Shown: positions 1,456 to 37,335 of the stretch, in pieces
How positions within the stretch are numbered: position 1 is the stretch's first letter
Layout: the number at the start of each line of letters is the position of its first letter
From: Desulfotignum sp.
Lineage (GTDB): Bacteria; Desulfobacterota; Desulfobacteria; Desulfobacterales; Desulfobacteraceae
Direction of reading: 5' to 3'
DNA length: 57,703 bases
Assembly (NCBI GenBank): GCA_011389575.1
Contig: JAABUB010000011.1
Span: 1-57,703, forward strand
The notes under the pieces: generated by a model
The model's database searches: none
What the model saw: the letters and a program-made list of their open reading frames with translations, nothing else
Told to the model about the DNA's origin: nothing
Position numbers and translations under genes: made by a program

Positions 1456-1553
1456 TCAATAACATTCATGCCTTGGCGGCCACAACAAAATATGAAAGCT
1501 GTTAGCTTTTAGCTGAGTACTGATGGCTTAGTACTGATGGCTTTCATATAAAA
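1456..1553 (+). repeat. Dispersed structured element, copy A
   Basis: Ordered blocks are CAATAAC (1457-1463), CATGCC (1467-1472), CACAACAAA (1481-1489) and ATGAAAG (1492-1498), then a hairpin closed by CTTTCAT (1541-1547). Flanking bases extend the stem to 10 bp (1490-1499 with 1540-1549). The loop contains a 13-nt direct repeat, GTACTGATGGCTT, at 1517-1529 and 1531-1543. Copies B (16468-16558) and C (37207-37284, minus) keep the same blocks with identical spacings of 3, 8 and 2 nt. This copy lies 45 nt after a stop codon and about 55 nt before the thioesterase start, in the same orientation. Whether it is a mobile palindromic element or a leader RNA cannot be told from this window. Confidence 0.75.
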
Positions 1554-13986: not shown

Positions 13987-15213
13987 ATGATCAGAGCCAA
14001 TGAAAATTACCAGAAGCTGCAGGCTTCTTATCTTTTTTCAGATATTGCACAGCGCGTGGCCCTTTTTCAAAAAAACAATCCCGATGCCCAAATCATACGC
14101 CTTGGCATCGGAGATGTAACACAGGCCCTGGCTCCGGCTGTCATTGCAGCCTTTCATAAAGGGGTGGATGAGATGGCCGAAGATGCCACCTTCAAAGGGT
14201 ATGGCCCGGAACAGGGCTATGGGTTTTTACGGGAAAAAATCGCAGTCCATGATTACCAGGCCAGGGGTGCGGATATTTCTGCTGATGAAATCTTTGTCAG
14301 TGACGGGGCCAAATGCGATACCGCCAATTTCCAGGAATTGTTTGCCCGGGATATAAAAATTGCCATTCCCGATCCGGTGTATCCGGTGTATGTGGACACC
14401 AATGTCATGGCTGGCAGAACCGGTGTATTCAAAGACGGCAGATACCGGAATGTTGTCTACATGGACTGTCTTAAGGAAAACAGTTTTCTTCCGCAGATCC
14501 CGAAAGAACCTGTGGATCTTATTTACCTGTGCTTTCCCAACAACCCCACAGGCACCTGTGCCACAAAATCCGAACTTGCCGCCTGGGTGGACTATGCGAG
14601 ACAAAACAAGGCATTGATTTTGTTTGATGCGGCATATGAGGCCTTTATCCGGGATGAGACCCTGCCCAGAAGTATTTATGAAATTGAGGGAGCAGCCAAA
14701 GTGGCTGTGGAGTTCAGAAGTTTTTCCAAGACAGCCGGGTTTACCGGTACCCGCTGCGGGTTCACCGTGGTGCCTAAGGACTGCAGTGTTTTTTCCGACA
14801 AAGGAGAACCGATTTCTCTGCATGGGTTGTGGCACCGGCGGCAGAGCACCAAATTCAACGGTGTTTCCTACCCGGTCCAGAAAGCTGCTGAAGCAGTGTA
14901 TTCCCCGGAGGGCCGGACACAGATAAAAGAACTGGTGGCCTCGTATCTGGACAATGCAGATATTATCTGCAGAACAGTTGAAGATCTGGGCTTCGGTTAT
15001 GCCGGCGGGAAAAATTCCCCGTATATCTGGGTGGACGGCCAGGGCAGAGATTCCTGGGAATTTTTTGACCTGCTGCTTAACCGGGCATCAGTGGTGTGCA
15101 CCCCGGGCGGCGGGTTTGGACGGTGCGGCAACCCTTATATCCGCATCTCTGCCTTTAACAGCCGCAACAATGTGAACCTTGCCATGGAAAGAATAAAAGA
15201 GGCCCTGAAATGA
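13987..15213 (+). CDS. dapL: LL-diaminopimelate aminotransferase
   Basis: DapL converts tetrahydrodipicolinate directly to LL-diaminopimelate with glutamate as amino donor, bypassing the acyl steps of lysine and peptidoglycan-precursor synthesis. The protein has 408 residues, the usual length. Seen are the [13 protein letters not shown] segment, [43 protein letters not shown] and the PLP-lysine segment [14 protein letters not shown], which match the DapL subgroup of fold-type I aminotransferases. The ATG at 13987 is preceded by AGAAAGGAAA. The gene overlaps moeA by 4 nt. DapL is typical of chlamydiae, cyanobacteria, plants and many anaerobes including Desulfobacterota, which supports the inferred taxonomy. 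Confidence 0.94.
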
Positions 15214-16436
15214 CCCATTTTTTTAAAGTAAAAACCCTTGATGAAGTCATGGCCTTACAGCAGCAGTTTGGACCCAAAGAGGTGGAAACCATTGCTGTGG
15301 AATCTGCCTTTTCCCGGATACTGGCACAGGATGTGACAGCGCCGGTAAATATGCCGGGATTTCGGCGGGCCACCATGGACGGGTATGCCATCCAGGCATC
15401 TGCTTCTTTCGGGGCCTCGGAATCCACCCCGGCATGGCTTGATGTCCAGGGATCCGTTCCCATGGGCCAGATGCCTGATTTTGTGCTGGCACCGGGAAAA
15501 GCCGCCGCCATCGCTACAGGTGGCATGCTGCCCCGGGGTGCGGATGCGGTTGTCATGGTGGAACATACCCAGATCATAGATGATACTTCCCTTGAAATCT
15601 ACAAGAGCGTGGCACCTTTCCAGAACGTCATTGTTGAAGATGAAGATTTTAAAACAGGGGATGTGGTCTTGCCGGCCGGTATTTTTATACGTCCCCAGGA
15701 GGTGGGCCTGGCAGCCGGTATGGGGTTTTCAACCCTGCCGGTGCACCAGGTGCCGAAGGTGGGCATTATTTCCACCGGGGATGAAATCATTCCCATCCAT
15801 GAAGAGCCTTCTCCCGGCCGTATCCGGGATATCAATTCCTATACCCTCTCAGGGTTTGTGCAGCAGGCCCATGCGCAGCCTGTGCAATACGGGATTATCA
15901 AGGATGATCCCCGGGCATTGAAAACCTGCTGTGAGCAGGCCCTGGCTGAAACCGACATGGTGCTCATATCCGGCGGCAGTTCCGTGGGAACCCGGGATTA
16001 CACGGTGGAGGTGCTCTCAGATCTTCGGGATACGGATATCCTGGTCCACGGCATGTCAGTGAGCCCGGGCAAGCCCACTATTCTGGCAAAAAGCGGCACC
16101 ACACCCGTATGGGGGCTGCCCGGCCAGGTGGTATCGGCCATGGTGGTGATGAAAATGGTGGTGGTGCCGTTTCTGCACAGGATTCAGGGCTATGCCGTAC
16201 CCAAATCGCTGGTGCGGATACCGGCCAGACTGACCCGGAATGTTGCCTCTGCCCAGGGAAGGCGCGATTTTATCCGGGTGACGCTGGAAAACGGACCAAC
16301 CGGGCTGATGGCAAAACCGGTGCTGGGAAAATCCGGTCTTATCCGGACCATGGTGCATGCAGACGGTCTTCTGGATATCGGGGAAAACCTGGAAGGCCTT
16401 GAAAAAAATACCTGGACACAGGTAATTCTTCTATAA
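15210..16436 (+). CDS. moeA: Molybdopterin molybdotransferase MoeA (first copy)
   Basis: MoeA inserts molybdate or tungstate into adenylylated molybdopterin, the last general step of molybdenum cofactor synthesis. The protein has 408 residues with domains in normal order: [13 protein letters not shown] near the N-terminus, [16 protein letters not shown], the [12 protein letters not shown] segment opening the MoaB/Mog-like domain, [11 protein letters not shown], and VSPGKPT with GLPGQ. The ATG overlaps the dapL stop, so it is translationally coupled. A second MoeA-type gene follows after 142 bases. Two such paralogs are common in bacteria that use both molybdenum and tungsten enzymes such as formate dehydrogenases and aldehyde oxidoreductases; a metal-specific division of labour is inference. 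Confidence 0.93.
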
Positions 16437-16467
16437 TATCAGCCAAAATTACCATTAAGAAATATTT

Positions 16468-16558
16468 TCAATAACACCCATGCCCCGCCGGGCACAACAA
16501 ATGATGAAAGCCTTCAGCTGTCAGGTATGAGCTTAACACTTAAACCTTTCATAAAAAA
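16468..16558 (+). repeat. Dispersed structured element, copy B
   Basis: CAATAAC (16469-16475), CATGCC (16479-16484), CACAACAAA (16493-16501) and ATGAAAG (16504-16510) occur with the same 3, 8 and 2 nt spacings as in copies A and C. CTTTCAT (16546-16552) closes a hairpin with a 35-nt loop. In this copy the 8-nt spacer lets TGCCC and GGGCA form a perfect small hairpin (16481-16494). It fills the gap between the two moeA genes, 31 nt after the first stop and about 20 nt before the second start. Confidence 0.75.
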
Positions 16559-16577
16559 CATATCAGGGAAAACAGTC

Positions 16578-18515
16578 ATGACCTCAAAACGCAACATATA
16601 CCTGGATACAAAACCCATTGAAACCGCCTGGCAGATGCTGGTGGATACCTTTAAAGAACATATCACACCGGTGGAAACCATTGATGTGACCGCGGCCCGG
16701 AGCAGGGTCCTGGCAGCGCCTGCCATTGCCGTTCTGTCCAGTCCCAATTTTCATGCCGCTGCCATGGACGGCATTGCAGTGGATGCCAGGCACACATTCG
16801 GGGCCAGCGATGATGCACCAAAATCTTTAGTCCCGGGAAAAGATGCTTTCTGGATAAACACCGGCCATGCCATGCCCGAGGGAACCAATGCCGTTATCAT
16901 GATCGAACAGGTGAATGTCATTGATGAGCAGACCATTGAAATTGAAGCCCCGGTATTCCCCTGGCAGCATGTCCGCAAAATGGGAGAAGATATTGTTGCC
17001 ACCAAGCTTTTGTTCCCCAGGGGTCAGCAGATCAATGCCTATGCTTTGGGGGCCCTGCTCTCCGGCGGTATTTTCAAGGTGGCGGTATATAAAAAACCCA
17101 AAGTTCTCATCATTCCCACAGGATCGGAACTGGTCCGGTGGGATACGGTTCAGGTGGATCAGCTTGCACCGGGCCAGGTGGTTGAATCCAACTCCACGGT
17201 TCTGGGAGCTTTGTGTCAGGACAATGGTGCACATTTTGACTGCCACCCCATGCTTGAAGACGACCGTGACAAAATTACCGATGCTGTAGCGAAAGCTGCC
17301 CGGGGAGATTATGATATGGTCTGCATTATCGGTGGTTCCTCAGCCGGATCAGAGGATTTTGCCCGGCATGTGATTGCTGCTTTGGGCCAGGTGCTGGTGC
17401 ACGGGGTTACCATGATGCCGGGAAAACCGGTATTGATGGGCAAGGTGTTTGAAAAACCCGTATTCGGCATTCCCGGATACCCTGTTTCCGCCATTGTGGC
17501 CTTTGAGCAGTTTGCAGGACCGCTTTTGCGCAGAATGCAGAAACTGCCCGAGCTGCAAACCAGTTCGGCCCCTGTCTCTTTGGCCCGGAACATTGCTTCA
17601 AAGCTGGGCCAGGACGAATTTTTGCGGGTAAAAATAGGCGCAGTGGAGGAAAAATTGATTGCTTCCCAGCTGCCCCGGGGATCCGGCAGTATCACCACCC
17701 TTACCGAAGCAGACGGGATAATACGGATTCCCCGGGATGTGGAAGGGATTTCAGAAGACCAGGCCGTCACGGCCCAGCTGCTCAGGCCCTTGTCAGCCAT
17801 AAAAAATACCCTGGTGATAACAGGATCCCATGACAACACCCTGGATCTGCTGGCAGACCAGATGCGCAGATTTCATGACGGTATCGGCATTTCCTCCAGT
17901 CATGTGGGAAGTATGGGGGGGCTTATGGCCATCCGGAACAGGGCCTGTCACCTGGCAGGAACCCACCTGCTGGATCCGGATGACGGCACCTATAATATTT
18001 CCTATATCAAAAAATATCTGCCAAAAATCCCTTTGCGCCTTGTGAACCTGGTCATGCGTGAACAGGGACTGATTGTGCCCAAAGGCAACCCCAAAGGTAT
18101 TCAGTCCATTGAAGACCTGAAGGTTAAAAAACTGCGGTTCATCAACCGCCAGCCCGGTTCAGGCACCCGGATTCTATTTGATTACAAACTTGGGGCACTG
18201 GGATTGGCACCGGCTGATATTCAGGGGTATGAAAATGATGAATACACCCATATGTCTGTTGCCGTAGCAGTTCTCTCCGGCCGGGCAGATGCCGGGCTGG
18301 GCATCATGGCAGCGGCCCGGGCCCTGGATCTGGATTTTATTCCCGTGGTTACCGAATCCTATGACCTGGTGATTTTAGAGCAGTTTTTCACCACCCCCAA
18401 TATCCGGATTCTGCTGGACACCATTGCAAGTGATGGATTTAAAAAACGGGTCCTGGCCCTGGGGGGTTACGGGGTGCAGAAAACAGGCCAGGAAATGTTT
18501 CGACAAAAGCGCTGA
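16578..18515 (+). CDS. MoeA-type molybdotransferase fused to a C-terminal periplasmic-binding-like domain
   Basis: The protein has 645 residues. Residues 1 to about 400 are a complete MoeA: FHAAAMDGIAVDA, AMPEGTNAVIMIEQ, VLIIPTGSEL, IIGGSSAGSEDF and MMPGKPVLMG with GIPGYPVSA. Residues about 420-630 are a substrate-binding-like domain starting with VITGSHDNTLDLLADQM and including FINRQPGSGTR and GRADAGLGIMA, the pattern of the PBP-like module also found in LysR-type and molybdate-sensing proteins. No signal peptide is present, so the module works in the cytosol, perhaps binding molybdate or tungstate. ATG 16578 has CAGGGA about eight bases upstream. An upstream ATG at 16527 lies inside structured element B and is rejected. 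The fusion is known in sulfate reducers and methanogens. Confidence 0.9.
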   Translation: MTSKRNIYLDTKPIETAWQMLVDTFKEHITPVETIDVTAARSRVLAAPAIAVLSSPNFHAAAMDGIAVDARHTFGASDDAPKSLVPGKDAFWINTGHAMPEGTNAVIMIEQVNVIDEQTIEIEAPVFPWQHVRKMGEDIVATKLLFPRGQQINAYALGALLSGGIFKVAVYKKPKVLIIPTGSELVRWDTVQVDQLAPGQVVESNSTVLGALCQDNGAHFDCHPMLEDDRDKITDAVAKAARGDYDMVCIIGGSSAGSEDFARHVIAALGQVLVHGVTMMPGKPVLMGKVFEKPVFGIPGYPVSAIVAFEQFAGPLLRRMQKLPELQTSSAPVSLARNIASKLGQDEFLRVKIGAVEEKLIASQLPRGSGSITTLTEADGIIRIPRDVEGISEDQAVTAQLLRPLSAIKNTLVITGSHDNTLDLLADQMRRFHDGIGISSSHVGSMGGLMAIRNRACHLAGTHLLDPDDGTYNISYIKKYLPKIPLRLVNLVMREQGLIVPKGNPKGIQSIEDLKVKKLRFINRQPGSGTRILFDYKLGALGLAPADIQGYENDEYTHMSVAVAVLSGRADAGLGIMAAARALDLDFIPVVTESYDLVILEQFFTTPNIRILLDTIASDGFKKRVLALGGYGVQKTGQEMFRQKR

Positions 18516-37036: not shown

Positions 37037-37206
37037 TTACCGGTATGCTTTTTTCTCAGAACCTGGCAGACGGTGGTGGCAATTTGAATGTCCTGGACAG
37101 CCACTTTTATTGAAATATTTATTGGAATTTTTGATACCAATACAATCAAAAACTTGATAATATTCTTTTTTTATAAATGTTAAAGTTGCACCAGGCGGAT
37201 ATGCTG
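37037..37206 (-). pseudogene. C-terminal fragment of an unidentified gene downstream of element copy C
   Basis: The minus-strand frame is open from structured element C to tandem TAA TAA stops at 37034-37039. Its end reads plausibly as protein (EYYQVFDCIGIKNSNKYF then GCPGHSNCHHRLPGS) with clustered Cys and His that might bind metal. No start codon with a ribosome binding site is visible. A plus-strand frame overlaps it, so the coding call is weak. Confidence 0.3.
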
Positions 37207-37284
37207 TTTTTATATGAAAGAACTGGAGGACCCACCGAATTCTTTCATGCTTTGTTGTGGTCCTCAGGGCATGGTCGTTATTGG
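37207..37284 (-). repeat. Dispersed structured element, copy C
   Basis: Read on the minus strand: CAATAAC (37283-37277), CATGCC (37273-37268), CACAACAAA (37259-37251) and ATGAAAG (37248-37242), with the same 3, 8 and 2 nt spacings as copies A and B. CTTTCAT at 37220-37214 closes a hairpin whose stem extends to 9 bp (ATGAAAGAA/TTCTTTCAT) with a 17-nt loop, shorter than in A and B. It lies about 50 bases upstream of the plus-strand homocysteine methyltransferase but points away from it, towards the relic frames. Confidence 0.72.
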
Positions 37285-37335
37285 AATGATATGATTGATA
37301 TCAGTGAATATGAATTTTGGAAAAACGGTAATTAA

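Follow-up and report, generated by a model that had tools for sequence, protein, structure and literature searches.

Introduction

Three places in one contig of a Desulfotignum genome carry the same short structured repeat, which raises the question of whether it is a mobile element or a leader RNA and, if it is mobile, what moves it. We followed this repeat through the whole stretch of 57,703 nucleotides that was analyzed (the window), through the genome to which the window belongs, and through related genomes. A sequence-only reading had regarded the repeat as a three-copy element without a named family, reminiscent of both nonautonomous palindromic elements and RNA leaders.

Results

Structure of the repeat

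The blocks CAATAAC, CATGCC, CACAACAAA, and ATGAAAG recur in this order, with spacers of 3, 8, and 2 nt, in all three copies, and the arms ATGAAAG/CTTTCAT enclose 42, 35, and 21 nt, just as had been reported for the copies at 1456-1553, 16468-16558, and 37207-37284. Searched with a tolerance of 3 mismatches, the pattern made of the first three blocks matched the window three times and matched none of 100 dinucleotide shuffles. The direct repeat described inside copy A is present but measures 14 nt rather than 13 (AGTACTGATGGCTT at 1516 and 1530). It forms a tandem duplication within the interior of copy A (window 1516-1543), which is shorter at the same site in genome G002; that G002 copy (L210) lacks part of the direct repeat, as the slippage previously suggested for copy A predicts. 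The bounds of the element had to be redrawn, since the leading AATAA is mostly preexisting target and the right end lies approximately 4-6 nt past CTTTCAT (ATAAA/ATAAAA). The features in the window are as follows.

1463..1553, + strand: copy A, miniature element of 91 nt; site empty (AATAA/TTTTT) in G005 and G006, filled in G002
1458-1462, + strand: left flank/target AATAA of copy A; ends ambiguous by ~2 nt (shared A-run)
1469..1482, + strand: left-end hairpin of copy A, TGCCTTGGCGGCCA, a degenerate TGCCC-TGNC-GGGCA (family consensus)
1481..1489, + strand: block CACAACAAA of copy A, nearly invariant in the family (position frequencies, 42 copies)
1492..1547, + strand: subterminal inverted repeat ATGAAAGC...GCTTTCAT of copy A, with variable interior
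1541..1553, + strand: right end CTTTCATATAAAA of copy A, counterpart of the insertion sequence (IS) right end GTTTCATATAAA
16475..16556, + strand: copy B, miniature element of ~82 nt; site empty in G005 and G006
16470-16474, + strand: left flank AATAA of copy B
37208..37277, - strand: copy C, miniature element of 70 nt, inside another dispersed repeat
37278-37282, - strand: left flank AATAA of copy C

The three copies are real, but they belong to a far larger family than had been recognized. In their own genome (3.56 Mb in 163 contigs, 83% complete), the pattern with up to 3 mismatches found 42 copies, 20 on one strand and 22 on the other, and the reversed control found 1 and 0. The left consensus of the 42 aligned copies is [AATAA]-C-(A/G)N-C-CATGCCC-TG(N)C-GGG-CACAACAAA-NN-ATGAAAG, to the left of which there is little conservation beyond a weak T-richness. 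The right end CTTTCA[CTA] was present within the searched range in 33 of the 42, mostly as CTTTCATATAAA, and the 33 right flanks beyond it share nothing except a slight A/C bias at the next base. Miniature copies measure ~60-140 nt, both in this genome and in eight copies read in G054 and G056. Their interiors are dissimilar, many being built of heptad-like repeats (GCTGTTAGCTTTTAGC...), and some copies stand in tandem or are nested at each other's ends (L005, L030, L216).

Pairing was analyzed over distinct copies. The left stem has 509 of 525 cells paired in 175 miniature and full-length copies (470 in shuffles), and the inner arm bases have 236 of 285 cells paired in 95 copies (167 in shuffles). 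When only distinct types are counted, the excess is weak for both the stem (42/54 versus 36.4 shuffled, maximum 44) and the arms (60/90 versus 50.9 shuffled, maximum 64).

The miniatures of G028 are larger, measuring 173-512 nt in eight of the nine fetched (L292-L299, L311), and contain inner palindromes; no end was found for the ninth. The cargo between the ends thus varies widely. Right ends in G028 and G044 are also adjoined by a second type of left end, in which ACAACGAA..ATGAAA comes after a long hairpin whose sequence is CCGGCACGGCCGGAGCGAGGTATGGCTCCGGCC or close to it (seen at L295, at L308, and in the right flanks of L293, L294, L298, and L299). This suggests that the layout may be constant and the sequence of the stem variable.

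Under a stricter pattern, the repeat occurs in 31 of 98 genomes including its own, with up to 82 copies per genome (G054) and no control match in any; 29 of the 31 genomes belong to the same family. An exact scan of GTDB contigs returned 93 stretches, and the 80 listed all come from Desulfotignum, Desulfobacula, Desulfobacter, Desulfamplus, Desulfobacteraceae, Desulfobacterales, or unnamed deltaproteobacteria/proteobacteria.

Insertion sites and gene context

Both signs of mobility that the sequence-only reading had named, scattered copies and empty orthologous sites, were found in the genome itself and its relatives. Site A reads CAATAA/TTTTT when empty (TAATAA/TTTTTT in G006) and CAATAA-C...CTTTCATATAAAA-TTTTT when filled; four of the seven fetched loci (L211, L212, L213, L218) shared too little sequence and were omitted from this alignment. 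Site B, like site A, is empty in G005 and G006, two genomes of the same genus as the window, where it reads CAGCAAC/A... with AGCAA in place of AATAA; in G002 it is occupied by two tandem copies, and in G004 by one copy with different flanks. Copy C lies within another repeat (window ~37127-37332) that has matches in G008, G010, and G011. Three other copies of this surrounding repeat (L219, L220, L221; in G008 and G011) read CCAATAA/ACAGC without the element, and the same adjacent BLAST pieces occur at two further places (G008, G010). At the orthologous loci of site C (in G004, G006, and others), the outer flanks align and the junction falls outside the alignment; in a G000 region with two further copies, the matches stop near the copies. 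Apart from an ambiguity of ~2 A, there is no target duplication at sites A and C, and site B is less clear.

The copies avoid genes: 40 of the 42 lie outside long open reading frames, compared with 86% of 723 random control positions inside them. The four gene-orientation contexts are represented 11, 10, 9, and 8 times, with a neighbor missing on one side in 2 more cases, and no orientation is preferred. Because all contexts are used about equally, a fixed leader RNA is excluded, and the earlier suggestion of an RNA leader falls. Copy B lies ~21 nt upstream of a MoeA/PBP-like gene (16578-18515). Window 15210-18515 contains two consecutive MoeA-like genes, the second with a fused PBP-like domain, and copy B stands between them. 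A molybdenum cofactor (Moco)-related leader was considered for this reason and ruled out, since the copies have no fixed gene context. The repeat is a mobile element, not a leader RNA, in line with the other half of the earlier suggestion, a nonautonomous palindromic element whose recognition part is constant and whose hairpin varies.

An autonomous IS110-family element with the same ends

At some of 162 distinct places, a gene occupies the position of the hairpin interior, and the element is ~1.7 kb long. The product is an IS110-family transposase (PF01548, 1.2e-21; PF02371, 2.3e-15), in which the DEDD N-terminal domain and the C-terminal Transposase_20 domain that mark this family are both present, and it matches the IS621 recombinase chain of solved structures at E 3.4e-07. 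A transposase search at E<=1e-60 found it in 14 of 98 genomes; the window's own genome, at 83% completeness, had no such IS at this threshold.

In G011, four IS copies are identical from AATAACATC-CATG... to ...GTGTTTCATATAAA, and their sequences part immediately beyond these ends. The three identical copies of G055 and the two of G042 show the same pattern; for G028, where the copy picked was a different one, and for G041, the comparison gave no information. The left end, subterminal inverted repeat, and right end of the IS are those of the small repeat, with ATGAAAC/GTTTCAT replacing the arms ATGAAAG/CTTTCAT. The inverted repeat measures ~8-9 bp (ATGAAACAC/GTGTTTCAT), with extensions of ~29 and 5 nt outside it. 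The IS of G028 carries CCACATGTCCTAGCGGACACAACGAAGCATGAAAC, and many small repeats of that genome carry the same or nearly the same sequence. As the ends coincide and genome-specific variants agree, we conclude that the repeat is a miniature form descended from this IS lineage. A classical MITE has terminal inverted repeats and duplicates its target site; here the inverted repeat is subterminal and sites A and C lack a duplication, and we therefore use MITE broadly, for a miniature element that derives from an IS. Our initial reading, in which the IS110 element inserts into the repeat, was ruled out by the end comparison of identical IS copies. A search for empty sites of one full-length G011 IS in six genomes was uninformative, as only the left end matched.

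A structured RNA downstream of the transposase gene

A conserved stretch 3′ of the transposase gene folds into two helices with 99.0% of cells paired in 20 distinct aligned copies. Ten of the 15 pairs changed on both sides, with 51 doubly changed cells compared with 13.9 in shuffles, and sliding the partners by 1-3 columns lowered pairing to 20-54%. Four of five measures of structure were unmatched by any of 500 shuffles; the fifth, the number of pair types (17 versus 18.2 shuffled, with 474 of 500 as high), does not favor structure. Three IS loci had no Rfam match, and at the Rfam gathering score the window matched only tRNA and SRP RNA, with the repeat copies unmatched. Across 389 genomes of the order, 19 contain an exact match to the RNA pattern; the window's own genome (83% complete) gave no match. 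With neither IS nor RNA found there, the mobilizer of the window's own copies is presumed.

Judging from these alignments, the autonomous partner looks as though it encodes a bridge RNA- or seekRNA-like RNA, which would be transcribed from this stretch. That such an RNA might descend from a copy of the ends nested inside the element is a much weaker possibility and a conjecture: the left end aligned to the RNA at chance level (397 of 2000 shuffles equaled it), and the right end did so above chance (45 of 2000).

A putative guide segment that agrees with the left target

A short variable segment lies just 5′ of the first helix, between the conserved GAGCGCG and CATGAC. It could be read together with a left end in 41 distinct IS copies, and in 38 of these its last six bases equal the left-junction 6-mer; another 17 RNA loci had no left end in range and were omitted. 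Clustering at 97% identity leaves 16 lineages, of which 15 show agreement of guide and junction, a result unmatched in 100,000 permutations; the lineages are related, so this permutation overstates independence and its figure is not a probability. The sequences seen were AATAAC, ACTAAC, TATAAC, ATAAAC, and TAGAAC. Of the pairs whose guides differ, the most similar (L234 and L253) is 91% identical and reads TAGAAC and TATAAC, each as in its own flank. The three mismatches are L246 (flank ATAAAC), L283 (ATTAAC), and L284; for the last, the left end lies at a distance of only 323 nt and is probably mis-assigned or that of another element.

The flanks of the MITEs were compared with the guides of the same genomes. 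G054 has TATAAC in 55 of 93 flanks and an IS guide of TATAAC; G028, with IS copies included, has TATAAC in 35 and ATAAAC in 14 of 62, and again a TATAAC guide. Among the 57 of 101 flanks listed for G044, AATAAC occurs 22 times, GATAAC 17 times, and TATAAC 9 times, and the IS guide is AATAAC. G056 has ACTAAC in 25 of 33 flanks; neither an IS (98-genome search, E<=1e-60) nor the RNA pattern was found there. Contrary to the agreement elsewhere, the guide in G007 is ACTAAC, whereas the 36 of 46 flanks listed include AATAAC 14 times, ATAAAC 7 times, and ACTAAC once; the IS of G007 is a surviving fragment on a contig. No clear conservation of a right-hand target was found in 33 MITE right flanks, nor by eye in the IS copies.

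Agreement on the donor side

The 3′ strand of the first-helix loop reads CATATAAAAC or nearly so, and a circle junction, in which the right end meets the start of the element, would have the sequence CATATAA(AA)C. Among the 20 aligned RNAs, that of L232 (G044) has CACATAAAA instead, and the IS right end in G044 is TTTCACATAAA / TTTCACATAAAA. The 44 MITEs of G044 that matched a two-gap pattern comprise 40 with CACATAA, 2 with CACACAA, and 2 with CATATAA; all 10 matched in the window's own genome carry the usual T. Since the RNA and the MITE ends of G044 differ alike, the MITE ends reflect a change in the RNA of their parent, and the donor-side agreement consists of this one base change. In G051, 10 of 11 copies end in CACATAA and 1 in CACACAA, and no IS was found at E<=1e-60; G057 gave no match to the two-gap right-end pattern.

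Discussion

Overall, the shared ends and the agreement of guide with flank and donor make these repeats look like MITEs mobilized in trans by an RNA-guided recombinase. We put at roughly 0.8 the probability that they are MITEs of a distinct Desulfobacteraceae IS110-family lineage, mobilized in trans by its DEDD recombinase and guide RNA. According to this putative mechanism, the MITE keeps what seems to be needed in cis, that is, the left end C-NN-C-CATGCCC-TGNC-GGGCACAACAAA-NN, the subterminal ATGAAA[C/G].../...[G/C]TTTCAT, and the right end ATATAAA(A), and the recombinase and RNA would act on it in trans, as bridge RNAs and seekRNAs do. The RNA segment NNNAA(C) would read the target strand left of the insertion point, and the segment CATATAAAAC would read the right end and junction of a circular intermediate. 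By the IS621 model, the 5′ segment would be the left target guide and the loop segment the left donor guide, with the AA common to both as the likely core. Insertion would take place next to any NNNAA (AATAA here), with no clear right-hand requirement. The ends, the empty sites, the covariation of the RNA, and the sequence agreements are observed, and transcription, RNA-protein binding, the core, the circle, and mobilization in trans are steps that we infer.

Bridge RNA-guided recombinases are known as site-specific elements. A target as short as NNNAA would explain how one RNA-guided element scatters tens of copies per genome. We lean, with some reserve, toward the further view that the target read by a bridge RNA is reduced here to approximately five bases, all on one side, so that a site-specific recombinase has become an almost general disperser of RNA-guided MITEs; the guides would have changed repeatedly (AATAA, ACTAA, TATAA, TAGAA, ATAAA), and the MITE flanks would form a fossil record of the active guides.

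Other explanations share parts of this evidence. The left 6-mer might be a part of the IS110-derived element that coevolves with the RNA rather than a target chosen by it, and such coevolution would equally make 6-mer and RNA agree across lineages; moreover, the last C of the 6-mer seems to be owned by the element. We nevertheless consider it improbable, because AATAA already stands in both empty sites at A and in all three aligned at C, although not at B, because flanks differ within one IS lineage of at least 97% identity (L246, L283), and because the 6-mer varies between copies of the window's own genome. Elements moved by single-strand Y1 transposases have AT-rich left targets, hairpins near their ends, and no target duplication. 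A palindromic element moved by an IS200/IS605 or RAYT enzyme of this kind would fit the anatomy in outline, and Y1 matches occurred in all eight genomes searched. The two copy-richest of these, G054 and G044, have short partial Y1 matches only, the window's own genome has two matches, and IS110 elements with exactly these ends exist instead; we consider movement by a Y1 enzyme very unlikely.

The repeat could also be a REP-like target of IS110 insertion that is itself moved by something else, given that its left part precedes the transposase gene in several IS copies and that an IS1111 element of Coxiella is known to insert into QMITE2 (in the portion of PMC5896051 considered). Against this, identical IS copies have an identical left part, variable positions included, and diverge only outside it; in addition, the shared sequence stops at GTTTCATATAAA with no leftover hairpin interior. 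We give such a target very little credence. IS621 itself is reportedly found inserted into REPs. A regulatory RNA leader or riboswitch, to which the two hairpins, the conserved blocks, and the position of copy B ~21 nt before a gene had pointed, deserves practically no weight when every gene context is used, empty sites exist, and the copies in the window have no Rfam match at the gathering score.

The RNA-guided MITE that we favor can be set beside known systems, as described in the parts of the cited papers considered here. The IS621 bridge RNA has two loops that pair with target and donor, with a core dinucleotide in each pairing (PMC11208160), and in the IS1111 group the RNA lies mostly downstream of the gene and the inverted repeats are subterminal (PMC11208160, PMC11187229). 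Our family resembles IS110/IS1111 elements in its DEDD transposase and structured noncoding RNA 3′ of the gene (PMC11208160, PMC11187229), in RNA segments that match and covary with target and donor (one base change for the donor), and in the lack of target duplication (here at sites A and C). Its subterminal inverted repeat of 8-9 bp compares with 7-17 bp in PMC11208160. In contrast, the target match is ~5 nt plus the first element base, on the left only, rather than the 8-14 nt given for six elements (PMC11208160), and the left extension outside the inverted repeat is a hairpin-bearing ~29 nt rather than the 7 bp described (PMC11187229). Inverted repeats of 11-13 bp with extensions of 7 bp and 3 bp are usual in the IS1111 group, compared with 8-9 bp and ~29 and 5 nt here. 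Also unlike those systems, very many gene-less derivatives exist.

These derivatives share with prokaryotic MITEs a short, gene-less, numerous, and intergenic nature and ends in common with an autonomous element (PMC10969869); both ends are indeed those of the IS (G011 and G055; 41 IS copies; the variant in G028). They differ in their parent, which belongs to the IS110 family and carries a guide-like RNA, and in having neither terminal inverted repeats nor, at sites A and C, a target duplication (PMC10969869). Dispersed intergenic palindromes with a hairpin at one end recall REP/RAYT systems, but there is no GTAG/GTGG head, and the enzyme is a DEDD recombinase, not a tyrosine transposase (PMC2817692). 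QMITE2 of Coxiella, the nearest case that we found, is likewise a MITE linked to an IS1111 element; however, it is the insertion target of IS1111, whereas the MITE here is an IS derivative (PMC5896051). In the open-access literature, as far as our searches covered it, we found no description of an IS110-family-derived MITE. The earlier statement that the layout has no named family holds within that search, but the kind of element is known, namely, a miniature derivative of the IS110 family. IS110 elements, their RNAs, and MITEs are each already known; what departs from the systems described in the parts of those sources considered is the target, short and one-sided, and the left extension with its hairpin.

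On this reading, a dispersed repeat in the genomes of sulfate reducers is explained. Tens of miniatures per genome would provide natural minimal donors, down to ~60-70 nt, and hundreds of natural insertion events from which target rules could be read. Moreover, the family would offer a case of guide change between closely related elements (91% identical).
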